Below, piece by piece: positions 1,032-57,477 of a stretch of DNA of 57,577 bases. The notes beneath the pieces were generated by a model. The model made no database searches. It was not told where the DNA came from and saw nothing but the letters and a program-made list of their open reading frames with translations. How positions within the stretch are numbered: position 1 is the first letter of the stretch; each line of letters opens with the position of its first letter. The stretch is from Chromera velia (lineage: Eukaryota > Sar > Chromeraceae), in NCBI GenBank assembly GCA_018398765.1, contig JAHBMJ010001660.1, positions 48,819 to 106,395 of the forward strand. Direction: 5' to 3'. The translations under genes and the position numbers were made by a program.

Positions 1032-2093
1032 ATGACTCTGTACAGAACAGGAGCGGTGCTCTCCTTCAACTTCGAACATGGAAAGATGGAGGTACGCGGC
1101 ATGCTCGCCGACAAGCGTTATGTCCTTCAACAGATCACAATCATCAGCGGACAAAAAAATTATCAACCTTACAGACGCAGGTGGACCTTCGCTCAGATTC
1201 AAAGAAAGTTGAAGAGAACGGTGCGAGGAGGAGGAAGAAGATCACCAGGACAGCAGAGATCCAAAGAGGAGGAGGAAAGGAAAGCGTCGGCTCTACAGGC
1301 CGCCAGAGACACTGTTTCGGCAGCGTGTTCCTCTGCGCTCGTCTCCGTTCTGAAGCTCGAGAGGGACAGGCAGAGGGAAAGGGAGAAGAAAAGGGAGGAG
1401 GAGGAAAGGAAAGCGTCTGCTCTGCAGGCCGCCAGAGACACTGTTTCGGCTGCGTGTTCCTCTGCGCTCGTCTCCGTTCTGAAGCTCGAGAGGGATAGGC
1501 AGAGGGAAAGGGAGAAGAAAAGGGAGGAGGAGGAAAGGAAAGCGTCTGCTCTGCAGGCCGCCAGAGACACTGTTTCGGCAGCGTGTTCCTCTGCGCTCGT
1601 CTCCGTTCTGAAGCTCGAGAGGGACAGGGAGAGGGAAAGGGAGAAGAAAGAGGAAGAGGAGGAAAGGAAAGCGTCTGCTCTGCAGGCCGCCAGAGACACT
1701 GTTTCGGCAGCGTGTTCCTCTGCGCTCGCCTCCGTTCTGAAGCTCGAGAGGGACAGGCAGAGGGAAAGGGAGAAGAAAAGGGAGAAGAATGAGGAGAGGG
1801 AAAGGGAGGAGGAGGAGAAGAAGGAGGAAATGAAGGCAGCTGCCGAGGAGGCTGCGCGGAATGCGGCCCGTTTGTCGTGTGTGAGTGTCTCTGCCTTAAC
1901 CATAGTCACAGTGGAGGCCCCTGTGTCTCAGACTGATTCTGAGGGTGTCCAGGAACGGCAAAAGAAGAGACAGCGAGGCCGGCTCTGGCAGGCGGCTGTC
2001 CGGAGGTTCTTTTGCCGTCTGACTGGACAGTTTTGTCTTCGTGGCTCGGCTGTGCTGGAGGACGATCAAGCCCAGTCCAGAAATTCAATCTAA
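1032..2093 (+). CDS. Hypothetical protein with four 43-residue coiled-coil repeats
   Basis: Single uninterrupted ORF of 353 residues. Residues 1-80 are non-repetitive and basic towards the end. Residues about 84-255 are four near-identical 43-residue units, each with a small-residue stretch (ALQAARDTVSAACSSAL) followed by a strongly charged segment (LERDRQREREKKREEEER). A further E/K/R-rich helix and a non-repetitive tail of about 80 residues follow. The pattern predicts a long charged coiled coil. The ATG at 1032 has an A-rich upstream context. No family was recognised. The opposite strand is also open across the repeats, so strand choice rests on the acidic/basic helix composition and on the longer total ORF. 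It could be a non-coding minisatellite that happens to be open. Confidence 0.4.
   Translation: MTLYRTGAVLSFNFEHGKMEVRGMLADKRYVLQQITIISGQKNYQPYRRRWTFAQIQRKLKRTVRGGGRRSPGQQRSKEEEERKASALQAARDTVSAACSSALVSVLKLERDRQREREKKREEEERKASALQAARDTVSAACSSALVSVLKLERDRQREREKKREEEERKASALQAARDTVSAACSSALVSVLKLERDREREREKKEEEEERKASALQAARDTVSAACSSALASVLKLERDRQREREKKREKNEEREREEEEKKEEMKAAAEEAARNAARLSCVSVSALTIVTVEAPVSQTDSEGVQERQKKRQRGRLWQAAVRRFFCRLTGQFCLRGSAVLEDDQAQSRNSI
1281..1796 (+). repeat. Tandem array, 4 x 129 bp
   Basis: Unit starts lie at 1281, 1410, 1539 and 1668, exactly 129 bp apart, so each unit is 43 codons and preserves frame. Units are nearly identical, with small changes such as the CAG/GAG switch after GACAGG and one altered KKRE/KKEE junction. 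This indicates recent in-frame expansion. Confidence 0.85.
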
Positions 2094-4115
2094 ATGGACG
2101 GACGGATGGATAACAAGGGAAAAGACCAGAAACAGTCTGCAGCCAAGGACCTTCCAGGCTGCGACGAACTCTGGTATGAGCATTTCGATCCATGCATCGA
2201 TAGTGCTTTTGGCGTTTCTCTTCAACCCAGAGTGATGGTATTGTCTGCAGCCAAGGAATTTCCAGGCTGCGGCATGCCACTTCAACACACGGGTACCAGT
2301 ATGGTGTTTCAGACAAACGACGGGCTGGGAGATGTCGGTTCGAGAAGTGCATGACTCTGTGAGGGACAAAGAGGGAAAGTTAATTAACGAATGCCTGTCT
2401 CATTGATTGCATGGGTGAGTGAATAAATGAATGAATGAATGAATTGATGAGTGGATTGATGGATGCATGCATCGATGGACGGACGGATGCATGAACCTTT
2501 CAACAGACCGAAAGAGGGGGGGGAAATGAATGAATCGATAGTCCCACAATCGTGAAACAAAACGGCACCATAAAGGGCCAGAACAAAACGGAGGCGGCTG
2601 GAAAAATACGCTCACAAAGCATTAGAGCGACAAAAAACGAATGAAGGAATCCAGAAGTTACGAAAAGATTGGTAATTCAAAAAGAATCGAATTAAGATCA
2701 AAATATGAACAAAGCACAAAAAATATGTTCTGCATTGTGATAGTTGTCGAGCTGATATAGTTGAGCTAGCTCTTGATTAGAGGGGGCTAAGGGCATAAAT
2801 TTTAATTTGTTGAAGTGCACACAGGGTTTACTGAAAGGCAATGAAAGCACTTGCTGCATTTCTTTATTACTAGCTTTATGAGTTAATAAAAAATATATCA
2901 TTCAAGTATATATAACATAAATATTTAGCTAAATATACGATAGTATAAATTGGTACTTAATTATTTAAAAAAAAAATAAAAAATATTATACATGCATATA
3001 TAGGCTAGAATCCCATAAATTTCGGTCCTAAAATCCTCTAAAGTCCTAGCTAGGCTAGCCTAAAATCCTATAAAATCCTAATTACTTGGAGCGCAATGAA
3101 TATTCACTTAGTTTTTTTATATTCTGCTCACTTAGTGGAAATTATAAACAAAATAATGAATAATCAATTTAGTAATTGATACACAGAATCATACACTGAA
3201 TGTATGCTGTACAATGAACAAAAAAAAATGTTTACCCACTTTGGATCCAAGGGACCGAGTGACCTTTTTTCATTTGTGTATATAGTTGGCACGCCACAGG
3301 CTCTCAGTACTTTTATTGCTGTCATTCATTCCATTTGGTGCGTGCAAGCATGGAAGAACCATGTCGATTCGTGCGATTCGATCAGCAAGTAAGCAAACAG
3401 TCCTGCATTGGACGCTCGACCTCACAAGGCACGCATGCTCACTCTATCTGCTTAATTTAATTCACGATGTCTGTGCATTACAGCGCCTCGGACCCGAAGC
3501 GCATCCAGTCAGTGTATGTGCCCGCAGGTGGCAAGACATGCAGGCAGGCAGGTCACGGTCCAAGGGGGGCACTCGGTCCCTCCCGAGAGAGGGAGAGACG
3601 GGGATTGACTTCCAGATCTTCCAAAGGGGCCTCTCCCGTCTCCTCCGATTTGACGGTCTAACGAGTTCTCTCACGGCCGTATGCTCATTCAATTCCCTCA
3701 CAACACGGACCACATGTAGACGCACGCGCGCACACAGAGAGATTAAAACGAAGAGAGATCGATCGTGCACCATTTGCATTTTACCCCCCCCCAATATTCC
3801 GTGCCCAATGTATGCCCCGTAATGAATACACAGGCAGGCAGGCTAGCTGCCGTGCGGAGTTGGCCGACCGACTCTTCGGCCTGCCTTCCTCCTTGCAGGC
3901 TGATTTTCTTTCTCTTTCTCTTGTTTGCCTGCTCTTGAATTGGCCTGCACTTTCTGTCCGTTTCTGTGTCGTCAAACCAGGTAAGTTGCGTCTTTCTGGA
4001 TCTAATTGATTGGCCGCACGGTTTGTGCGAACAGCCGGTTTGTCTAGAACAAATAAATAGAGACTATAAATCAAAGATCGAGGGAAACGAGACGCGCCCC
4101 TCCCTTCCTTCCTCC
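2094..4115. other. Intergenic DNA with short repeats
   Basis: No gene was recognised. A partial direct repeat (gtctgcagccaagga then ttccaggctgcg) occurs near 2138 and near 2246. Simple (GAAT)n and (GGAT)n runs occupy about 2410-2495. From 2640 to 3240 the DNA is AT-rich, with scattered AATCCTA-like motifs at 3005-3085. The ORFs over 3286-4009 do not look like real exons. Confidence 0.5.
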
Positions 4116-10619: not shown

Positions 10620-12577
10620 ATGACTTCTGCGATTAGCCTGTCAGCGGACGTCCTTCGTGATTTCGCAGTGGGGGTTGAAATCGGAGACGAACATCGTGTA
10701 CTGTCTAGAGACAATCCCCAGGTCTGATCTATATATTCATTTTTCGATTGTCCGTTCCATCGTTCCTGTTCGAATCGTTTTGGGCATATTCTGTACGTAA
10801 TATTCGTATTTCCTCTCATTTTCTTCGATTTGTAGGTGCCTATTGCTTCGCTGGAGCCCCTGACGATCCGGCTGACTTCCATTTTACAGGTAATTGAAAG
10901 CAAACAACTCATTCAACCTTGTGTATGTACGCGTCTCGACTTTCTGTTTTCCAAAAACCCGTCTACTTGGGGCTGGCCAGTCTGAAGGGCTGCCAGCTAG
11001 TCGAAGATGTGCTTTTTGACCACAATGCAGAGGTACCAATGTGGCATGTAGTTGTTTTGTGAGCAACAGTGTGCATGAGAGTGTACATCTCTTTACGAGC
11101 AATAGACCGTTTTCATGTACCTGGCATGGTGTGCATATATGTCTGGTTCTCTCTCTGTTTGTGTCTGGATTTACACTTCAGCAGGTCTGCCCCCAAACGC
11201 CCAGGAGCTCACAGCAAGGCACGGGACCACCAGACAACGAAGCATTCGAGATGAAAAGGTCAGTCGGTCGGATGGCTAGAGGGAGATATTGATGTCATCT
11301 TTTCTGCAGGGCCTTCTACGTGTCCCACATTTTCAGATTTGAAATGGATACGTGTACCCATCCGTACATTCATCTGCTGATTTCGGGGCTTTCTCTCTTG
11401 CATGCTCATACAGTGAGTCAACCCAGTCCAGACAGCGAGACGGACGAAGAGAAGAACCAGACACACTCTCTGCTTGTTCATTTCGCGTCTTTCCGTTCTT
11501 GCAGATCATTCGAAGCAGAAGCACCACCAGTCGGGTCCTTTTCAGACAGTACCAATTTGTTTCAACCCCCTATCTCTCAACACACACCACCAGTAACATC
11601 CTCGGACCTGGTCAGGCAGATGCTCGAAGCCCTCCAGGCAGCCAGACCTGAGGACGAGAGGCAGTTCTTGGTCAGCAGTGAGTGCATGCATGGGGGGGGG
11701 TTCCAGGTGCATTGATTTTCCTTTTCGTAGTCTCCTCAATGCCTTGACCAACCAAAGAGAGTTTTTCTCTTCAGGTTTCCTTCTTCAACATCCCATCCTG
11801 TTTTCGTAAAGTCTTCCATACGTTCTTCTTGGACTCCCTTCCTTCCCCTTTTGCTTTCTCTTGAGGGCGCCTGAGACAACGATCTTTCTGCGACTGCTGT
11901 CCCTCATTCTGTCTCTGACTGTCTGCCTTTGTTCCTTCCCGCAGATCGATTTCCTCCTTCTTGGCGCTGGGAAGAGACCCACACAAATGGAGAAGGAGGA
12001 TGAAAAGGATACACAGGGAAAAGGTAAAAAGGGGTGCGGAGTATCGCCGTGCTCCCCCCCAACTTCGACTGTTCCCACGGGGTGGACGAGCGCGTCGAAG
12101 ACAACTGAGGAGATTGGGGGGCCGCACTTGAACAAGCAGACGTATTTGCCGTGCCCTTTGAGTGGCCTCTCCTTTTCCTCTAGGGAGGCCTCTCCGCTGA
12201 TGTGGGAGGAGACAGCAGAATCGGTTCTCCAACTGGTCACTCTGAGGGGGTTCGTGCCTCTGCAGGGTCTTGGTGTGTTGGCAACTCTTTGCAGTGCCAC
12301 GTCCAACCTTGTACAGTGCCCCCTTGCCCTGAGAGCGGCGTTCCAGTCGACTGGGCTTGCCTGCAGGGGGCGGGCCCTGAGGTCTTTGCTGTGGTCTGAC
12401 CACGTGGGTGCTCTGGATCTTCTCCTGAAGGAGGGCATCGTGGATGCTGACAAGCCCCTGATCCTCTCAGAGGTCTGTCTGTCTGCCTGTCTGTCTGTCT
12501 GTCTGTCTGTCTGTCTGNNNNNNNNNNNNNNNNNNNNNNNNNNNNNNNNNNNNNNNNNNNNNNNNNNNNNNNNNNNN

Positions 12578-12610
<33 letters not shown>

Positions 12611-14602
12611 GATGGGCATCGTTTCGACTTCCCTCTTTCCCTGGCGCTCCGGCCCCGAAATTTCGTCTCCTCACCAGAAGCTGAAGGAGAAGGAGGGGAC
12701 GCGCAGCAGAACCACCAGGGGATCCCCCTGGGGTCTCGAGAGTTTTCACAGAGAGACCAGCAGATCGACAAAGAGGGGGCTACTTTCGAGTGTGCCCGTC
12801 TCCTCATTCAGCACGGAGCTCCCCTGTTCAGTCTGAACGCGCAAACAGAGTCCCCTCTGTCCTGTGCAGTCCGACACTGCACACAGAGAGACATCCTGCA
12901 GTCTCTGGCAAAGGCTGCAGCCAAAGACGATCTTCTGTCTTTTCGTTTTCCTCTCTATGCGGAATCCCCTCTCGACCCTTCCGCTTCAAATGGTGAGTGC
13001 CTTGCCCCTTTCCTCTGGACTGCGGTACAGCATCAGAACGGTGCCGCAGTCGAAGCACTCATAGGCGCAGGAGCAGATCCAAACGACCATTCGCAGAGAC
13101 TCTCGAAGTCTCCTCGTGGCGCCGTTAGGGGGGAGACGGAAGGGGAAGGCCTCTCTTTGAGGAGAGACGGTCATTCGATGAGGAGACTGTCGTTGTCGAT
13201 CGAGAGCGATTCTCCTCTCACGCTTGCCGTGAAGAGAGGAGACGCTCAGATGATCCCCTTGTTGGTTCACCTGGGTGCACGCGTGGATCTATGGGACGGT
13301 CATGGGGACTCTGCGCTCCATGTAGCGTGTGCGCTAGATGACGTTCCCGTTCTTCGGCTGCTTCTCCAATGTGCAAAGGAGAAGGAGAACAATTGGGAGG
13401 GGGGGCAGGTGACAAATCTGTCCGTCAAGGACAGCAAAGGAAGAAGCCCTGTTCATCTTGCCCGCTCAGCAGCTGCCTTCGCTGCCCTGTTTGAATACGG
13501 CGCCTCGCCCAACGAAGGCCTAGATGATGGCACCACGCCCCTCCTCAAAAACGTCCGACTAGGCAAGACCGACGCTGTGACGGTCATCCTGCAGGCGGGG
13601 GGGGATGTGCACGTGCAGGATGAGTGGGGTGAGAGTGCAGCCTCACTCGCAAATCGAGGCGAGATTCTGCGTCTGATTGTGGAGAAGGGGGCAGACCCGA
13701 GACCTGCAGTGATAAGAGCTGCACAGGGCAAGTCTGGAATTTCTGTCGAGTCTCTGCAGACAGCGTTGGGGGGTCGTGAGGCGTTGTGTGAGGTGTTGAG
13801 GGAACAGAACGAGGAAGGGAAAACGCCTTTGTTCTTCGTCTCCCGTCCTTCCCTTGTATCTGACCTGCTCTCTGCAGGTGCGTTGCCGCATCTCCGAGAC
13901 AAGGAGGGGAGAACGTTCCTTGATCAGACCCTCCTGAACGGTGCGTTGATTGAGGACGCTCTGAAGGGACAGACTCACCTGTCTGACCTTCTGACAGAGG
14001 CCAGAGACGGATGGAATTTCAAAGAAGAGGAAGTGAACGCATGGGCAGTTAGAGCTTTGAAACCCCGCATTGATCGCTCTGCTTCTGTTAGACAGGGGCA
14101 GGGGCAGGGGCAGGACGGGGGGGTAGGGTCTGAGGTTAGTCGTCTGTCGAATTTGACTCTCCTCAGAGGGACCCCCCTCCTGCTTGCTGCTGCAGTAGCA
14201 GGGGAGGAAAATTTCCTCACTCGTCTGCTCTCTTATGGAGCAAATCCGAAGGGCACAGATCGGAATGGAAGTTCGATTCTCCACCTTCCCCAAGTTTTGA
14301 TGAAACCTGAACTCGTTCATAAGTTGATTTCGTCAGGTGGGTTTGTGCAAAGTTTGGTGGCAGAGAAAGACGCAAAGGGCAGAAACCCTTATGAGGTTTG
14401 TGTGTCAATGGCGGCAGTCCATGGAGAAGAGCTGTCAGAAGCTCGGAAGAGAATCTCTATGCCGGGGGGGAGTGAGGCGGGACTTTTGGAAGATGCGTTG
14501 GTAGAAAGGGAGCTGTGGCACGCAGAGAGGAGTCTGGAGGGATTCCGATTGTCCTCCCATATCCTCAGAGAGGCAAGCATGCGTCTGAATAGAAGAGCTT
14601 GA
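10620..14602 (+). CDS. Large ankyrin-repeat protein
   Basis: The start is the ATG at 10620 (MTSAISLSADVLRDF). Supported exons: 10620-10721, 10836-10889, one ending at 11032 (acceptor unresolved), 11182-11258, 11310-11670, 11945-12472 and 12611-14602. Phases agree from 11182 onward if the donor at 11671 is GTCAGC. The last two exons encode 840 codons. Ankyrin-type repeats are visible: GADPNDHS; HGDSALHVACALDDVPVLRL; GRSPVHLARS with YGASPNEGLDDGTTPLL; GKTDAVTVILQAGGDV; GKTPLFFVS; and GTPLLLAAAVAGEENFLTRL with YGANP. Repeats are spaced by long low-complexity insertions. No catalytic domain, signal peptide or membrane segment was seen, so a cytoplasmic or nuclear scaffold role is likely. One repeat is split by an intron containing an assembly gap. 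The stop TGA is at 14600-14602. Confidence 0.8.
12518..12577. other. Assembly gap (60 N) inside a microsatellite intron
   Basis: The gap is flanked by (GTCT)n on the left (from 12473) and (TG)n on the right (to about 12607). It lies wholly within the intron between 12472 and 12611, so the coding sequence is unaffected. Smaller ambiguous bases occur at 30783 and 47269-47270, both in homopolymers. Confidence 0.95.
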
Positions 14603-27000: not shown

Positions 27001-30000
27001 CGTCACTGACGCACGCACCTGCAACCATCCTCGTCCAAGAAGAGGATGGAGGACTCGGGGGTGATGCCGATGGATCGCACGTCGATGGCATTCGGTCCGT
27101 GATAGGTCTGCGCGTCTGCAAAGACTGCAGGGGCGTGTTCGAACACCGCGTCCTCATCGACTTCGATCGTCCTGGGCTTCTCTGTCATCGCCTTGGGCTG
27201 CAAGGAAGGAAGAAAGGGAAGAAAGGGAAGAAAGGGAAGAAAGGGGAGAAAGGAAATCAGTGGGCGTGAGAGAAAATGGGACGAAGAAAAAGCAAATGCA
27301 TTGTTTTTCATGACCGTCGTTTGAGATAGACAAGAGAAGAACAATGGAACGGTGAGGAAGGTCGGAAGCCTCAAAGGGGTGGACACGTCCGCACGCACTT
27401 GGAAGAAAAGTCCATATGGAACAAAAAAGCCCAAACAATCACTTGTCAAAGCAACACAGTGCGTCAGAACAGAGCCAAAACAATCACAGATAAAGCACAG
27501 CGAGTGTCATCACTCATTTGTGTCCTCACCACTCACCGTGGAGACAACAGAAAGAAGGAGACCGTCCAGAGCCTCTGCTCCATGATTCATTGCAATGTAG
27601 GCGACCTTGAAGGTGCCCTCGAAGAACTGCCCTTCTCCGATCTTCCCCCCCTCTCCCTGTAGACCGATCTCAACCATATCGTCCTTCACCCTCTTCATTC
27701 TGGGCTTCACATACAGAGTCTCTCCGCCTGGTGTGTGTTGCACTGCCACAATGACAGCGGGGGGTTCCTCGAAGGCGTGTTCAAACATGAAGTCGTGCCA
27801 CTTTCCGTCGGCTTCTACGTCCCATGTCCCGATCTCTATGTGAGCACCGGAGGGAAGGAGGAAACTGCCTGGCTCTGCCACGAGCAGATGAACAAACTCG
27901 ACTGTGTGGGGCCCATCGAAACAGGAAGGCTCTTTGAACTCCACAGAGTATTCGAGAGGGGCCCGGCAGGCGATGTGGGTTGGACAACAACAATGCCTGG
28001 GTCCCCTCCGTTCATGGTGGAGACAGAGGGGAACACCAGAGGACTCTGGTAGTCTGTCAGAGAAGAGGGGACAATTGCGGGGGAACTGGAGAACTCTGTG
28101 GATAGAAGAGAGAGTTTCGGCCAGTCTCCGAACTCTTCCTTGTCCTCTGTGTCATCTGCCTCTTCATCTGCTGGATCTCCGAGGCCGACCGCGTGAATGG
28201 GAGGGACTTGACATTCATAGTCAAATTCTCCATACTTATAAGTGCCGACGCAGGGGTCTCCGACAGTTTGGTTTTGGGGTTTGACGATACAGCTTTCGTT
28301 GCCATCGCACATACCGGACCCGTGGTCGAAGATACCGACGTAACAGTCGAGGTCAGGGATGGAGGAGTGGGGGCAGACTTCGTCCCCTGGCCTCTCACGA
28401 CCGTACCAGGCCTCGGTGGTGACAATGACCTCTCCGATGACAATGACCTCTCCGGGGGGACAGGAGACAGTGCCCTCAATGTTCTCGCAAATAATGTTGT
28501 CTGGGTTTCCGGCAGAGATGGCAACGCTTGTGGTGGTGGTGGTGGTGGCAGTGGTAGTGGTAGTGGTGGTAGTGGTGGTTGTGGTGGTTGTGGTGGTGGT
28601 GGTGGTTGTAGTGGCGCAGCCTTCGGATCTGGTTGTGGTTGCCGCAAAAGCCCCACTCGGATCTGCACATTGTAGGGTCGTCACAGGGCAGGCCTGTGCA
28701 GCCTGTGCTTGGATTGACTGTGGGGGCGGGGGGAGGGGTGCATCCCTCTGGCTTGTACAGAGAGTCATCGTTACAGTACCAAGAGGTGAAACCACAGAAA
28801 CCCCACTTTGACTTGCACATCGTGGGATCGTCACAGGGAGTCCCCTCGCATCCTGCACCTGCTGCTGTAGGGGGAATGGTTGTGGTGGTTGTTGTAGTTG
28901 TAGTTGTCGTTGTGGTTGTAGTTGTGGTGGTAGTTGTCGTGGTGGTGGTAGTGGTCGTGGTGGTGGGGGCGGCTGCCACACACCCTTCGGGCTTGTAGGT
29001 TGATTCTTCATTACAGTGTGCTGCAGTGGAACCGCACCACCTCCACTTGGAACGGCACATAGTGGGATCGTCGCATGGGTCTCCCACACAGCCTGCACCG
29101 AGAGTGGGGGTGGGGGGTTCTGAACCCTCAGGGAGGCAGAAAGGGACGGGGTGCTCGGTGTCGATGTGGTAGACACCGTCGTCTGGGAATGACTCTGGTT
29201 GGTGGAAAACGGATGGGTCTTGGGAGGGGTTGATGGAAACAGAGGAGACGTAGAGGGAGGCCTCGTTGAAGGAGGCATCCCCTGCCCAGGAGGGGAACCA
29301 GACACCGATGGTCAGACGGGCTGCGACTGCTGAGATGTGCTCGGTGGACTCTCCAATGAACTGATCATCAATGAACAGCTGGACTTTCTTTCCGACAGGG
29401 ACCATGTAGAATTCTTCCTCTTCCTTGACTGCCGCCATGCCCTGGTAGGGACTGTTGGCCTTTGCGACATACAGATGGTCCCCAACTCTGGCCAGATCTG
29501 CAGCTGTCAAGTCTGTTGGCACAAGCTCTGTTGACCAGACGAATTTGTATTTGTGGTACTCTCCGTCGTATGCGGTGGGGATGGTGACTGTCTGGTAGTT
29601 TGCACCCATCACAGACTCCCACGTGTGGAAGCCCGCTTGGTGCCAGGACCAGGGGCCAGGTGCGCCGATCTCCGGAGCTGCATTGATTGGCATGCATCAA
29701 TTAAGAGAAAAGAAATATCAGATAGGACGATTCAGTAGGAGTAACGCTTGCGAACAGACTGAGGGTCAAACGGGGGTGCATTTCGGGTCAGCGATGCATG
29801 GAGCTGAGGGTAGGGAGTGAAGTGTCGGTCACGGAGGAACAGCACATCGAAAGCTGATGAGTCCTTTGAGTGATGCACCCAGCCAGAGAGGTCCTTTAGA
29901 CTGACCGTTGATTTGTGAGTTGACTGTAGACCAATACCCAATGTCGGGGTTTCCCTGTCTGAATCTAGGTTGGTAGAGGGGGTCCTCTGGGTTCAGGTCA

Positions 30001-34879: not shown

Positions 34880-35847
34880 ATCTGGATTCTAATGGTCATG
34901 AAAGTAACTGCGACTTCAGAAAACGATAATCAATCGCATATCAATCGCACATCAATCGCACATTTGCTTTGTGTACAAACATATGTCAAACGCAGCTGAG
35001 AGATACTAAAGGGGGGGGGTCAAATGGGTTGAGGCGTCTCGAAGTGTAGAGGAGAGAAGACTTTGTGCTTCTAATGCTCCCCACCTTTTTCCTCTTTTCT
35101 CTGTCAGATCTGTGATTTGATTAATTAATATTATATTTGATAATGCCAAATAATGTTTCATGGTGTATACATTCATGAATAATCATTTTAATATAGTTTG
35201 ATTCATTTTTATTACTACTTATTTGGATATATTGAGGGTTATTGAATCTAATATTAAATAATAGTGCAATTGATGATCTAGTTGATGATGTATGTACAGT
35301 TTTTCTTTTTATTACCTAACTTAATAGTCATTTTGTTCTTAAAACGCCTTAACCGGCTTATATAGAATAGGATGGGATTTATATTTCGGGCTACCCTGTG
35401 GTCTACCACCGGGCCTCGACTTGCACCCTGAGAGGCACGGTTGTCGCCGCGGGGCGGCAAACGGTCAAGCTAGTAGGCTAGAACCGCGGCGCTAGCGCCG
35501 CGGAAAGCTTGGGCAGGCACCGCGGCTGCACCGCGGCTGCGCCGCGGTGCTCACCAATTAAGGCTGCTCTAGAAACACTGCCGCGGAGGGGCCTGGAAAG
35601 GACCGCGGAAAAAGGGCCACTCTAGAAAGCCTGCGTCGATCACCTAGCTGGAGTCGGAAGTCACGGTTGGTCGCTTGATGTGGTCAATCGATTGCCGTCC
35701 TGTGGTATCACACAATATGTCGGAAAGAAAATAGCCAAGTCCGTTTCTTGCAGCAAAGGCTGTTGAATCGAGGTCATCAGAAAAGGTTGAAAGCTCGTCT
35801 CCTCCCTTGTCTGCTTGCGCATATCCGTAGACGGAGAGCCAGTCACA
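34880..35847. other. Intergenic: AT-rich then CCGCGG-rich cluster
   Basis: AT-rich DNA at 35110-35340 gives way to a second CCGCGG cluster at 35440-35620, containing a 20-bp palindrome and CCGCGGCTG direct repeats. Two ctctagaaa motifs (35568 and 35621) recall gtttctaga at 31534 in the opposite orientation. No gene was seen before the transporter start. Confidence 0.5.
35484..35503. repeat. 20-bp perfect palindrome
   Basis: ccgcggcgctagcgccgcgg equals its reverse complement. It is followed by three CCGCGG(CTG) copies up to about 35551. Confidence 0.9.
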
Positions 35848-37080
35848 ATGCCAACGCCAAAGACTAGCACCTCCTCTGCGGGGGACTCGCAGCTGATGAT
35901 CTCGCTGTATATGGCTTTGAATTTTGGATCGAGTCTTCTAATTATCTGGACGAACAAGCTCACATACCTTGCGGGCTTCAAGTATACCATTGCGTTGACG
36001 TGTCTTCATTTCGTATTCACTTCTTTTGGATTGGAACTGTCTCGTATGTTGGGACTCTTCTCCCACAAAAGCATTTCGTGGTTCGAGGTCGTGCCTATCA
36101 GCTTATCTTTTTGCGGTTTTGTCGTGTTCAACAACCTCAGCTTGCAGTACAACACAGTCGGACTCTACCAGTTGACAAAGGTGATGACCACCCCAACCAT
36201 TGTTGCCATCGACTTCTTCTACTACCACCGGACCCTGCCCTTCTGGCAGAACATCAGCCTTATCCCTATCATTATTGGAGTCATTCTGGCCACTGTCACG
36301 GACCTCTCTGTGAATTTTTGGGGCGTGGTCTTCGGGGCCTGCGGCGTTCTCTCCACAAGCTTCTACCAAATCTGGGTCAAGACTGAACAGGTGGGTGGGT
36401 CGGTGCGTTGACCGTGTGTGCCTTTCGCTCTACCCGCTGAGAACCATCTCGCTCATTTCTCCATGCAGTGCGGATGAGTGGCGAATTATGACCTGTGAGA
36501 GAAGGAAGAGAAGGAGAGGAGTGGGCGTGTGGAGACGGAGAAAATACAGACCCTGACAAACCAGAAGTGGCGTGTTTGTATGATGTAGGAGAATAGCAAG
36601 AGTGACAAGAAGAGCTTTTTTCTTCGTCGGAGAATGGAGAGACTGAGAAGGAATGCTCTGCTGTGAGAGAACGAAACGACGAACAGGAAAGAAGGAGTGT
36701 GTGTTATGAAAGAGGACGAGAAAAAGTGACAATCCTAATGTCAGTAGATATAGGTGGAATCCAGAGCGCTGCATACATCAGACTAATATAGTAGGTGACC
36801 TTGCGCTTCTCCCCCGTCTCCATTGATCGAGTGCAGAAACGGTTGGACTGCAATGCCCCTCAGCTGTTGGCGTACCAGTCCCCGGTGTCTTGTCTGTTCC
36901 TTTTGTGTGCGATGCCTTTCTTGGAAGACCTCTCGTCCCCTGAGGCCGGTCTCTTCTTTTTCGAGTGGACAACAGACGCCACTCTGTACCTGTTCGGCTC
37001 AGGTGGGTTGTCTCAGAGTCTCCCTCCCTCTGTGTGTGCGTGCGTGCGTTCGTGCTTGTGTGTGTACGTGTGTACGTGTG

Positions 37081-52062: not shown

Positions 52063-55000
52063 CTATGCGCGCGGTCGCACCGGCACTCCGGGTACCCCCC
52101 CAAATTTGCTGCCTGCCCTGAACTCCTCTCCCTTCATCATCAAAGAGAGGCCATACAGAGTTGCCCCGTCTCCCATGTGGGTGTCGTACAGAACCACAGA
52201 CCGCGTCCCCACCGAGGCCTCCCTGCCGATCTCCACCGTGCCTGTCTTCATCACCCGGTCTTCGAACAGATGAGTCTGGAGGGTCGCGTTCTCCTCGACG
52301 GTCGTGTCGTCGCCCACAGTGACCAGATCGAACTCGATCAAGTAGGGGGTGTCCAGGTACACACGTCTTCCGATCTTCGACCCCATCATTCTCATCCATG
52401 TGTTCAAGAAAGGCGTCCCCGCAATGGCCTTTCCGAACCCTGCATAGGCGCAGTCATCTGCCATGGTGGTCATTAGCTCGGCCCTCCAGACGAAGGTCGA
52501 GTAAAGGGGATGACGTCCAGGGCGGATGCGGCCGACCAACAGCCACTTGTGGATAAGGGTCGAGAGGGCAACGACAGAAGCCCACAGGAAGACCAAGGCT
52601 GGGACCATCATGGGTACCCACCAGTCGAGAGTGAAGGTCTGGAGTCTGTAGATGGTGGATTCTTGTCCCACAGACCACTCTGGGAAGAAGAAGGCGATGG
52701 TGTAGGTGAAGATCAGCCAGACGGCAAGGAATGCATACTCGACTGTAAGGGAGGGGGCGATGCATCTGTAGAGCTCGATGAGAACTCGGAGGATGCGCAT
52801 TCGGAGAGGGGGGGCGAAGGTCTTGGAGCTGTCGACCTCGACAATCTCCCTATTGGGTAATGCGAAGGCCACAGAGCCGAGGTAACTCTGATTCGGTTGC
52901 GTTGTGACAGACGCGGGGGGTGCAACAGAGGCGACACCCACGAGATTGGATCGGGGAAGATCGGTTCCCGGGGGGGCAATGGAGTTGTTTCCGAGGAATG
53001 TTCTTGCCCCCACCTTGACTGTCCCCAGGGACATTTTCATTCTCCCACTCTCTGCTTCTCTGTTCACATTCCACCCTCCCACATGGACTGCATCTGCAAT
53101 GAAGCACTCGTCCTCGATGGTCGTCATATCAGGGGTCCACATGACCAAGTCACTCACCTCCACCTTCTTTCCGATGCTTGCCCCCATCCACCTCATCCAA
53201 GAGGAAGTGAAGAGAGTTGAGTAGAAGGGATGGCAAATCATCACGTGACGGTCAAGGACGAAACGCAACAACCAGAAACGGCAATAGAACCATGAGTTGA
53301 CCTCCCATGTGCCTGGCTGGATTTTGAGGGGAAACAACAACCACCTAGTGGCAAGGGCGTAAAGGGAGGGTCCGACCACCACGGCCCAGATGGAGAGGGC
53401 GGGAATAATCTCGGAGGCAAGTGCGAAGTTTCCATTCAGATAGAGGGCATAGATCAGACCAACCCTCGGGGCTTCCGTCAAAGCCAAGACGGTGAAAATG
53501 GAAACCGACCACCAGAGAAGGAAGCCTGCACTTCTCAACCATGCAGTGAAAGGAGAGGAACCACTAGGGACGGAGTCCTGTCGCGGCTCTTTCTTCTCTT
53601 TGCACTTTCCGGGACCGTCATGCCAAATCTGGTTAGAAGGAACCTCTGTGCCAGGCATCAGACTGGTGCCAGGGCAGAGAGTCGAGTTCTCTCCCACTGT
53701 ACACCCTCTCGCAACAAACGAAAGTGCCCCCAACTCTGCCCCCCTCCCAATCTTCACCTTCCTCAGCTTCACATACCCATTCTCGACCTCAATGCACCTC
53801 ACATACGCAGACGGCTGCAACACAGCGTCATCTCCAATCTCCATCAAATCAAAGTTTCCGAACCCCAGAGTCTTGGAGGCGATGTGCACATTCTTTCCAA
53901 TCTTGGACCCCAACAGTCGGAGCACAGGTGCCATGAGGGGGGTCCCGAAGAGGAACGTACTGTCGATGGAGGAGGTCCACCTCCTCACAGTCCACCAACG
54001 GACGAACTTCCAGGACCAGACGGGGAACTCACCCTCCCTCACCTTTCCCAGGAGGGTCCACTTTAGGGCAACAGCAATGAGGATGTTCAGAAGGTGGTAG
54101 ACGATCACAGACGCAGGCCAGCAGGCGATGACTGCCCACAGGGGAAGGTTGTAGTCCTCCCTCGCTCTCAGCAGGAAGTGGATCGACAGAATCGTCTGCG
54201 ATTAAGCAAGAAACAAAGGAGAGTCGGAAGGAGTCAGTTGCTCATCAGCCGCCACTGGAGCAATGAATGCCGGTTTGACAAACAGACTATATGTTTCGTC
54301 TCTTCCTCCTTTTCTTCATGACAGAAGACAGACAAACACGGAGAACAGAGAAGGCCTGCATGCGTCACCCAAGCCTTCCGTGCCCAAGTTCTGAACCAGT
54401 GGGCGGAAAGTTGATCCTCGATTCACGGAAGGCCGCGGAAAAGCAGTTGACGGAATAAACGAGAAAGGAAAACAGGAAAGGAAGACTGGAAGAAGGGAAG
54501 AATGGAAGGAAGGAAGGAAGGAGGGAAGGCAGGAAGGCAGGAAGAATGGATAGAAGGAAGGCAGAAACGATGAATGATCGAAGGAAAGAAAGAGGAGAGA
54601 AAGTATTAAGTTGAAAAGAAAGAAGCTTGACTGACGAATGCTCCAGTGTAGGTTGCGTTGAGGAGGATCACGAGCGCTTGGACGATCCACACCCCCAGCA
54701 TCGTGAAGGGGTGCACCTTCCAGGGACTTCTCACCTTCCTCTCCCTCAGCAGAACCTTCGACTCTGCCCCCCTTGCAGAACCCTTGTCTGTAGATGCGCT
54801 GCCTCTTGTGCCTGCAGATGCCAGAGACTTGGACCTGTTGGCAAGCACCTCAGCAGAGATCACAGGCCGAGGATGCACAGGGCCCTCGATGTCTCTGCAG
54901 GTGGCAGAGGGAGAGGCGGTGCGGGGCTCTTCGGAGGACCCGGGGATCGTGTTCCTCAACGTGGGGGGGGCTGCCGAGCTCTTGGCGGCGACAACAGAAG

Positions 55001-55064
55001 CCAGCTCGATCTCGTTGGCCTCACAGAGAGACTCAATACGAGAGGCAAACACACGGAGCACCTG

Positions 55065-55124
<60 letters not shown>

Positions 55125-57477
55125 GAGAGAGAGAGAGAGAGAGAGAGTAAGGAGGAGGCAGCAATGAGAAGAGAACAGAGGAAGGGGGGGTTGAAAAAGA
55201 AAACAAAGAAGGGAACGCATCCTTGAGAATCTGAAGTGAGCTTGTCGTTTCTCTGTTCTGACTCGATCGCGACACCGTACGTGTGTTTTGTCCCTTCATC
55301 TGCCTCTGTTTCTCTTTGTCTATCTGCCTGTACTACCAACTGACCTGAGTGTCGTACAGGTCCCTAACAGCGAGGGGTACCTCAGGAAGTTCCTGTCTGA
55401 GTTTTGAGATCACTCGGGCAGCCACGAGAGAGTTCCCACCCAACTTGAAGAAATCATCCGAGGCCAGGACCTGAGGTACTCCCAGAGCCTGCTCCCAGGC
55501 AGATGCGAGAAGCTTCTCCAAATCAGAGCTCGGAAGGTCCTCTGCGTCGACTGCACCGTTGTCCCCGTTGCCGGAGGGGAGGGAGGGGAGGGTCTCGGGA
55601 CCTGGGGGGGGCAGCTGGCCGAGGGCTTTTCTGTCCACCTTCCCTGAGGGCATGTAGGGGATTGTGTTGAGGATGATGTACCGGGCCGGGACCATGTAGT
55701 CGGGAACAGACTGTGAGACGTGTTCTCTAAGGCCGAGGGGGGTGAGGAGGGGGGCAGGGATTGGAGACGGGTGGTGGGGGGAAGAGGGAAGGGCGGCGGT
55801 ATCGGTGACAGCAGTGGCTGCAGGAGTTGTGGGGGGGAAAGCGGGAGAGAGACGTCCTTGGGAAGCCAGAAGCTCGGGAGTGGTCATGTTCCCGATGTCC
55901 TGCTTGCTGGTGCCCGGAGTGTGGCAGTAAGCGGAGTGGGGGGTGCCCTTGTCCTTTGCGAAAAAGGGGGTTTCCTTCTCCTTCGTTTTGGAAGTGGATG
56001 CGAAGACAGCGCGTGCCAGCTGCTTGAGAACAGAAGTTTCGGAAGGAACAGAAACTCCACTGGCGACGTCATCATTCGGGCTTGTGATCTGCACACTAGG
56101 GGGACGCGGTCGCTGTGGGGGGGAACGAAGTCTGAGACCCTGTGGGGAGATGACATCTTCATCTATGTCTTCTCTGTCCGGTTCTTGTGAGGGCATCATC
56201 TCCTCCTCATCCTCTTCCCCCTCCGGAGACAGAGCGTCAAGGGTCAAGGCAGGAATTCCCCCCGCACCCCCAAGACCTGAAGTCACGCTAACGTTAGCCC
56301 CACTGCTGCCACTAGACGACGCACTTGCAGATGCCGTGGCAACAGCAGTTGTCTCTGCAGCCACCCTCGGGCCTCTTCCGACCTCCGCCTCTTGAGAGGT
56401 CACGTAAGCAACCAGAGTTAGCTCGGAACCGGCTGCCCCTCCCACATCATCTCTGGCAAGAACCACCGCCTCCTTCACCTGAGGGTGTGTGCACAGAGCA
56501 GACTCAATCTCTGTCAACTCCACTCTGTACCCTCTGATCTTTACTTGGGAGTCGATACGTCCCAGGAACTCAATGTTCCCATCTGCATCGAAACGAGTCA
56601 AGTCACCTGTGCGATACAGACGAGGTTCATATGCCAAGAAGCTCTGATGGGTTTTCGGATCGTACCCCCGAGCACCCCTTCCCTCAGTCTTCCCCCCGAC
56701 ATACTCCCTCCAGTCATACTGCAGCCAGTTGGGCAGGGGTGCTGTGTGGGTGTCAGGAATAAACTTCTCCGGATTCAAATCGGGTCTGTTGATGTACCCC
56801 CTTGCAACAGACACACCCCCGAGAAGCAACTCCCCCGCCTTCCCACTCCCAGGAGGACAAGGGTTCCCTTCCTCATCCACAATATGGGCAGAGTATCCTG
56901 GAAGGGCCTTTCCGATCGTGATAGGGACCTTCGGGTGCACTTCGCAATATGTTCCGACCACGGTAGCCTCTGTAGGACCGTACGTGTTCAGAAACACGCG
57001 GCCGGGGGCGCACCACTTATCCACAACCTCAGGGGGGCAAGCCTCTCCTCCGGTGATGACAATGCGGAGAAGGGGGGGGTCCGGAATGTCTTCGCAGACG
57101 CGCAGCACCTGCAGAAAAGGGAGGGAGGGGCACGGAAAGAATGAGGGTCCGGGTCTTCGTTTGTGTGCATTTCTCTGCATCTTTGTGGGAGCCACACGTA
57201 CCTCCTTCCCTTCTCCAAACAGCCAACAGAGTCAGACAGGAGCAACAGGCAAATCCATTCCTTCGCCTTTCCTCTCACAATAGAGAGGCTAATCGGCCGA
57301 CTGACCGTAGGGACTGTGGAGAAAACGGTGATGCCCCTATCTGCCAGAAGGGCTCCCATTTCAGGTCCGGATCTCATCAGCTCCTTTGTGCCCACCACTA
57401 GAGTGGCACCAGAGGCAAAGGCCAGCCAGATCTCTTCCACAGAGGCGTCGAAGCAGGTAGAGAACCCCTGGAGGACT
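52063..57477 (-). CDS. Pls/PosA-type NRPS-like synthetase (A-PCP-membrane beta-helix modules), N-terminus outside window
   Basis: Exons 57306-57477, 55345-57108, 54636-55061 and 52063-54195 join in phase 0, giving about 1,497 residues; the 5' end lies beyond the right edge. Adenylation-domain motifs: FDASVEEIW, NTYGPTEATV (A5), YRTGDL (A7), LGRIDSQVKIRGYRVEL (A8) and MPSGKVDRKAL with the A10 Lys. A low-complexity insertion of about 210 residues sits between A8 and A10. The carrier domain follows (DDFFKLGGNSLVAARVI, phosphopantetheine Ser). After a Ser/Pro linker come hydrophobic segments alternating with three hexapeptide beta-helix modules: GSKIGKNVHI...VTIG-like KIGRGAELG; MGASIGKKVEVSD...VGARTFLGNNS; and GSKIGRRVYLDT...EIGREASVG. 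This order matches the Pls/PosA family, typified by epsilon-poly-lysine synthetase, where A activates an amino acid, PCP carries it and the tandem membrane modules form the polymer. The substrate was not deduced. Probably integral to a membrane. Confidence 0.88.
55064..55147. repeat. (CA)n/(GA)n microsatellite forming a splice acceptor tract
   Basis: On the minus strand it is (TC)n then (TG)n ending directly in the cag before exon 55061 of the NRPS-like gene. Confidence 0.9.

Follow-up and report, generated by a model that had tools for sequence, protein, structure and literature searches.

An intron-containing Pls/PosA-type gene with a lysine-type adenylation pocket in the alga Chromera velia

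The stretch of DNA analysed here (hereafter the window; 57,577 nucleotides, bases 48819-106395 of contig C1658 in the 177.8 Mb, 4,040-contig genome assembly of Chromera velia) carries at its right edge a gene whose product combines an adenylation domain, a carrier domain and a membrane-associated terminal part, which raises the question of whether this alga encodes an enzyme of the kind that makes poly-lysine. Bacterial Pls, the delta-poly-L-ornithine synthetase PosA and the fungal Epls of this family have already been characterised (PMC10522769, PMC7179176). Judged by its sequence, the gene of the window probably encodes a Pls-type lysine polymerase yielding an isopeptide lysine polymer, this product being a good prediction and not a result.

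That the gene belongs to the Pls/PosA family is close to certain. The terminal part scored 487.7 bits (E 5.6e-146, cut-off 423.1) with TIGR02353, the NCBIfam model of the family, and the same locus was recovered with 486.9 bits in a six-frame search of the genome. In the control search, TIGR02353 was matched at E <= 0.001 in 13 of the 14 named control genomes and its cut-off was exceeded in one. Hexapep, AMP-binding, AMP-binding_C and PP-binding were found above the Pfam cut-offs in the two large exons; no condensation (PF00668) or thioesterase domain was among the Pfam matches of these exons, which do not have the make-up of a classical multimodular non-ribosomal peptide synthetase. The truncated adenylation part reached 193.7 bits with TIGR01733, below the model cut-off of 317.4, as expected for a domain that is only partial. 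According to Pfam, hydropathy and AlphaFold2, the visible order is adenylation, carrier and three units of two transmembrane (TM) stretches plus a left-handed beta-helix, as the Pls/PosA plan requires, the hydrophobic stretches falling in three pairs in the hydropathy profile. An earlier sequence-only reading of this DNA had proposed a Pls/PosA-type enzyme with three membrane-embedded beta-helix modules. The family assignment held under the profile, the domain order, the conserved residues and the trees described below, and the beta-helix part, which scores above the TIGR02353 cut-off, is not unrelated to the family. Nor was a different N-terminal class seen, the upstream exons of two paralogues matching AMP-binding. 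The three modules are indeed present as well, but the membrane part is formed by hydrophobic helices and not by the beta-helices (hydropathy, structure model).

The gene consists of four predicted exons on the minus strand and runs from 57477, the first base of the most upstream visible exon, to 52063, the last base of the TAG stop, exactly as delimited in the sequence-only reading. The exons appear to join in frame at the right edge of the window, all of them are open, and together they encode the last 1,497 residues of the adenylation-carrier protein. The claim of an intron-containing gene was also borne out at the sequence level: three GT-AG introns (197, 283 and 440 nt) all have GTCAGT at the start and CAG at the end, and the lysine-type paralogues on contigs C3597 and C3992 likewise have an intron after STVPT and an acceptor in front of the FDAS exon, at the same positions. 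The solved bacterial homologues continue straight across the STVPT border.

The substrate pocket is where the prediction of lysine comes from. Its nine positions, which we take to be residues 235 to 331 in the GrsA numbering, lie in the two upstream visible exons, so that extraction of the specificity residues did not have to await further exons, as had been supposed. In the alignment they read DAESIGTVV; the lysine of GKVDRKAL, presumably the core A10 motif, is present as well. All nine residues (9/9) are equal to those of 7WEW, the solved adenylation domain of epsilon-poly-L-lysine synthase, and the acidic pair Asp235 and Glu239, expected for diamino acids, is in place. The pocket of PosA (8G95), on the other hand, reads DMEHNGTVS, four of its nine letters being different from those of the window. 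A search with the 176-residue segment placed 7WEW (137.4 bits) and PosA (134.5 bits) first among the solved relatives, ahead of the next one at 118.1 bits. According to PMC10522769, lysine enzymes have alanine at the second code position and the glutamate at the third binds the side-chain amine, phenylalanine occupies the second position in diaminopropionate and diaminobutyrate enzymes, and the beta-lysine code is DGESISVVNK.

Relatives were collected from plasmids and from genome_contigs, where a first scan with a two-row algal alignment found none and a second scan, with eight plasmid homologues added to the alignment, gave at least 588, the best 80 of which were kept. Codes were extracted from 90 relatives (10 plasmid, 80 genome_contigs), six of them being dropped and 84 giving all nine letters. 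Among the latter, 24 codes start with DAES, 42 with DME (the ornithine type) and 18 are of other kinds; eight are identical to the code of the window. The 11 best-scoring adenylation segments all have DAES codes, the best identity being 58.8%. The amino-acid homopolymer suggested in the sequence-only reading is therefore supported and appears to be narrowed to lysine by the nine residues equal to those of Pls. Given the same lysine pocket as in the bacterial enzyme, the alga can probably make a lysine polymer of the antimicrobial type.

Adjacent genes were seen next to two of the plasmid relatives (L015:4923-5480 and L017:5001-6404): a phosphopantetheinyl transferase gene directly follows a Sphingomonas Pls/PosA gene of ornithine-type code, and an M1 metallopeptidase gene directly follows a Streptomyces Pls/PosA gene of lysine code.

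The terminal part was modelled with AlphaFold2 from the last exon and an alignment of 55 bacterial relatives (mean pLDDT 89.9, pTM 0.90). The model consists of three repeats of a TM hairpin and a left-handed beta-helix, the first hairpin being interrupted at the exon border. Foldseek placed hexapeptide acetyltransferases first (best E 2.7e-5; TM-score 0.18 by query length and 0.60 by target length), a match that would span about one module of the model. A search of the PDB sequences with the terminal part gave seven weak matches, judged by their names to be one hexapeptide transferase and six carbonic-anhydrase-like or complex I chains. Neither the PDB sequence search nor Foldseek found a solved structure of the three-module terminal domain.

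The 55 alignment rows were obtained from 80 loci, 73 of which passed the length and ambiguity filter. Of the 33 terminal positions invariant in these rows the window keeps 31, along with 19 of the 22 near-invariant ones, and the paralogue C3597 keeps 30/33, being altered at the G193 and P442 positions and at 420. The family motif QTHLFEDRVMK is intact in the third module (C3) of the window. The scan that supplied the rows used two patterns, one of them QTHL[FY][EH]DR, so that the invariance of this motif partly reflects how the rows were chosen; a tblastn search gave 10 plasmid homologues, nine of which have the motif in strict form and all ten in loose form. In HHalign alignments (one comparison per module), the histidine of the C3 motif falls on His115 of Escherichia coli LacA, a hexapeptide acetyltransferase that, like maltose O-acetyltransferase, shares the fold of each C module and in which we take His115 to be the catalytic histidine. 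No histidine was found at this position in C1 or C2, and for this reason C3 would be the bond-forming module, whereas the other two would have a structural or binding role. Hexapeptide acetyltransferases are soluble trimers using acetyl-CoA, unlike the product of the window gene, with its three fused membrane-anchored modules and presumably carrier-bound donor.

In the mechanism envisaged, the adenylation domain would activate L-lysine with ATP and load it onto the phosphopantetheine arm of the carrier. Anchored in the membrane, the assembly of three helices would then hold the lysyl thioester for attack by the epsilon-amine of lysine or of the growing chain, with the C3 histidine acting as a general base, as in hexapeptide acetyltransferases. 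Through repeated cycles, several to tens of lysine units would be joined by isopeptide bonds into a polymer, no condensation or thioesterase domain being involved. As a guess, such a polymer would be used in chemical defence.

The genome contains further members of the family. TIGR02353 was matched by nine stretches at five loci, of which only the window and C3597 exceed the cut-off; the three loci below it are less secure because the model also finds matches in 13/14 control genomes. The nine-letter code of C3597 is the same as that of the window, and its upstream exon, in a region that also has a short run of N, matches AMP-binding and reads TSGSTGKPKG, presumably core A3. Between the terminal parts of the two genes 106 of 168 fourfold sites differ and 46% of residues are shared, which fits long purifying selection on both copies. 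After its third module C3597 has a C-terminal extension of about 516 residues (L010:8181-9728, plus strand), which contains several more hydrophobic stretches and matches nothing in Pfam. The third lysine-type copy, C3992 (L011:3160-8200, plus strand; code DAESLGSCA), has upstream exons matching AMP-binding and may be non-functional, perhaps a dying copy, because it contains an in-frame TAG (or a missed intron) and an altered C3 motif.

At the two other loci a different loader precedes the terminal part. C860 (L012:1502-6378, minus strand) encodes acyl-CoA-ligase-like exons, a carrier and a diverged Pls-like terminal part (TIGR02353 144.3 bits, best stretch over the last third) in which CHLNSRG replaces QTHLFEDR; its loader scored best in NCBIfam with the fatty acid-CoA ligase FadD7 (62.9 bits, against 29.7 bits for amino-acid adenylation, both far below cut-off). 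C152 (L013:4234-6666 and 1779-4037, minus strand) encodes a fatty-acyl-AMP-ligase-like domain and a carrier, followed by a Pls-like TM/beta-helix part that is more diverged than that of C860 (TIGR02353 66.5 bits, below cut-off). Plasmid relatives of these two terminal parts amount to 21 and 12 records, with 23-36% identity among the matches listed, and those annotated among the listed ones are Pls/PosA or amino-acid adenylation proteins. Two loci of the phosphopantetheinyl transferase type (PF01648) exceed the cut-off in the genome.

To trace the origin of the gene, trees were built from the algal copies and prokaryotic members only; the terminal tree contained 57 of the 84 prokaryotic rows, limited to six for any one code. 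The window and C3597 form one clade in it (100/100, branch 1.27), as do all three lysine-type copies of the alga in the tree of the adenylation part (96/84). The rows nearest by path outside the algal clade carry lysine codes in both trees, with no supported joining branch. The phylogeny proposed in the sequence-only reading thus brought the algal copies together and did not provide them with a supported bacterial partner; the acquisition is likely to have preceded the duplications. A viral origin was rejected: the viral_contigs scan with the terminal exon gave four pattern matches, none of which was confirmed, a single-protein query of this kind reaching close relatives only, and among viral structure models no fold match reached E <= 0.001 (best 1.3e-3). 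In the genome as a whole, 58 stretches of light-harvesting proteins (E <= 0.001) point to a photosynthetic eukaryote; the best PDB match of one such segment (121.6 bits) was not identical to it.

A number of observations weigh against the prediction of a lysine polymerase. The window ends at the start of exactly 5,000 N, inside which cores A1-A3 are expected; no motif searched for turned up in 4.4 kb of sequence beyond the gap, and the gene may be incomplete. Between A8 and A9 there is a low-complexity insert of about 200 residues (232 residues, open in frame, separate motifs that are only 32 apart in C3597); as none of five donor patterns (0/5) was found inside, a hidden intron was discarded and the insert provisionally kept as coding. 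Pocket codes predict substrates imperfectly, and a 293-residue query ranked linear gramicidin synthase (239.2 bits, four stretches) and 8xjz (177.1 bits, two stretches) above 7WEW (170.8 bits), in our opinion because stretches over several adenylation domains were summed. Identity between the terminal part and the 55 bacterial rows reaches no more than 28-35%, two of the invariant residues are altered (G193D and P442V), and the long algal branch of the terminal tree has neither a supported bacterial partner nor a donor. In PMC10522769, "sequences from other eukaryotes", with substrates unknown, are placed in a fourth group apart from the lysine enzymes. Finally, a scan of ten open reading frames (ORFs) of the window revealed no partner or biosynthetic gene beside the gene.

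Some of these points bear on what the enzyme would do with its lysine. It is conceivable, albeit unlikely, that a lysine-using Pls/PosA-type enzyme produces a short oligomer or moves one or a few lysines to a lipid, sugar or protein acceptor at the membrane. The modules carry an acetyltransferase fold, whose usual job is a single acyl transfer; the divergence of the terminal part and its two altered residues are in line with this, and the two other loci, where acyl-type loaders are joined to a weakly related terminal part, suggest that the scaffold can serve other donors. However, the C3 family motif and 31/33 invariant residues are retained, and the characterised members named in the discussion of PMC10522769 produce polyamino acids. 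It is a still more doubtful suggestion that a single scaffold, the three-module beta-helix transferase, is used in this alga with exchanged loaders (lysine, fatty-acyl-AMP-ligase-like and acyl-CoA-ligase-like) that may cooperate. If so, the loaders would jointly make, for example, a fatty-acylated poly-lysine or anchor poly-lysine in the cell wall or membrane, and the terminal domain would be a general carrier-to-acceptor transferase instead of a dedicated homopolymer enzyme. Activation of another basic amino acid (ornithine, beta-lysine or diaminobutyrate) is improbable: pocket codes are degenerate and PosA binds L-lysine too (PMC10522769), but wherever the PosA, diaminopropionate/diaminobutyrate or beta-lysine codes depart from that of Pls, the letter found in the window is that of Pls.

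There is very little chance that the gene is a decayed or silent copy (a pseudogene) or an assembly artefact at the gap; the decayed appearance of C3992 and the unassembled 5' part of the gene would agree with this, yet they are opposed by four open exons, intact visible core motifs and a pattern of change relative to C3597 that fits purifying selection. Bacterial contamination of the assembly is practically negligible as an explanation. The relatives found are bacterial or archaeal, but the collections searched contain nothing else, and three paralogues on three contigs have GT-AG introns at shared positions, simple-sequence repeats surround the gene and occur within it, light-harvesting genes are found in the same assembly, and the terminal part is at most 35% identical to all 80 genome_contigs and 40 plasmid rows among the matches listed.

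A Pls-type lysine polymerase in the alga would share the plan of bacterial Pls, i.e. adenylation domain, carrier (PCP), six TM stretches and C1/C2/C3 (PMC7179176, PMC8117764), together with all visible pocket residues (9/9) and the C3 motif seen in L017, a Streptomyces homologue of the same code. It differs in being encoded by a eukaryotic gene with introns and a long A8-A9 insert, and its terminal part is 31% identical to that of L017. Fungal Epls, likened here by description only, is likewise eukaryotic and has adenylation and thiolation domains (A, T), tandem C1-C3 and a conserved lysine pocket, and its overexpression raises the output of epsilon-poly-lysine; it comes, however, from a fungus and not an alga and is 51% identical to Pls of S. 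albulus (PMC7179176). PosA of Acinetobacter (8G95-8G98; PMC10522769) belongs to the same family, has the same plan and provides the second-best solved adenylation match, its pocket being different as described above.

Pls/PosA homologues have been reported in "Alveota", Metazoa and Amoebozoa (PMC10522769), and neither Chromera nor Vitrella is named in the main text of that paper. An alveolate homologue is thus already in print, and the gene of the window may be that one. For each of two chromerid genomes, "2-3 Other(A) genes", which combine an adenylation and a carrier domain with a domain of another kind, have been listed, without a poly-lysine synthetase label in the part of PMC7073580 consulted. 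No paper on a chromerid or alveolate poly-lysine synthetase was found in the open-licence literature, and the new elements here are the structure of the gene, its lysine pocket, the paralogous copies and the acyl-loaded cousins.

The features of the gene are listed in Table 1. Elsewhere in the window, overlapping ORFs at 27839-29696 (minus strand) match SUEL lectin and chitin-binding domains and possibly represent a carbohydrate-binding protein, a 930-residue ORF with ankyrin repeats at 11810-14599 (plus strand) crosses a 60-N run at 12518-12577, and an ORF at 35791-36408 (plus strand) narrowly exceeds the cut-off of the triose-phosphate transporter family (31.7 bits, cut-off 30). Scans of the window with Rfam (gathering threshold) and for tRNA gave no matches.

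Table 1. Predicted features of the Pls/PosA-type gene, in coordinates of the window.
Feature	Position	Strand	Basis or remark
Exon, adenylation domain, core A4 (FDAS) through STVPT; pocket D235, A236, E239, S278	57306..57477	-	7WEW alignment; acceptor and 3' border common to two paralogues
Intron, 197 nt, GTCAGT..CTGCAG, after STVPT; position common to C3597 and C3992	57109..57305	-	
Exon, remainder of adenylation domain (A5-A8, extended low-complexity insert, A9-A10) and carrier domain (PCP)	55345..57108	-	
Pocket residues I299, G301, T322, V330, V331	56956..57057	-	alignment; coordinates counted by hand
Low-complexity insert, A8-A9	55738..56415	-	
A10 lysine (GKVDRKAL), tenth letter of specificity code	55639..55641	-	coordinates by hand
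LGGNSL serine, predicted phosphopantetheine attachment site of carrier domain	55429..55431	-	PF00550; coordinates by hand
Intron, 283 nt, GTCAGT..GTGCAG	55062..55344	-	
Exon, linker following the carrier domain, and first hydrophobic stretch, ahead of module 1	54636..55061	-	
Intron, 440 nt, GTCAGT..TCGCAG	54196..54635	-	
Last exon, 710 residues of the TIGR02353 terminal part, ending in the TAG stop	52063..54195	-	
Module 1, rest of TM hairpin and beta-helix C1	53593..54195	-	structure model; HHalign vs LacA E 1.6e-12
Module 2, TM hairpin and beta-helix C2	52879..53553	-	structure model; HHalign vs LacA E 5.1e-9
Module 3, TM hairpin and beta-helix C3	52090..52806	-	structure model; HHalign vs LacA E 9.3e-9
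QTHLFEDRVMK motif of C3, putative condensation site; His at 52270-52272 (residue 642 of the last exon)	52246..52278	-	coordinates by hand

Poly-lysine is an approved food preservative obtained from Streptomyces (PMC8117764), and in the open-licence literature searched a fungus is the only eukaryotic producer for which the gene has been proven (PMC7179176). If the prediction is true, poly-lysine chemistry would be extended to algae by the lysine-type synthetase of this photosynthetic relative of the apicomplexan parasites. The product would be directly testable, and its presence would raise the question of the role of a polycation in such a cell, be it defence against microbes or cross-linking of the wall. 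The paralogue and the acyl-loaded cousins, in turn, would represent natural variants from which it may be learned how the three-module terminal domain forms bonds.

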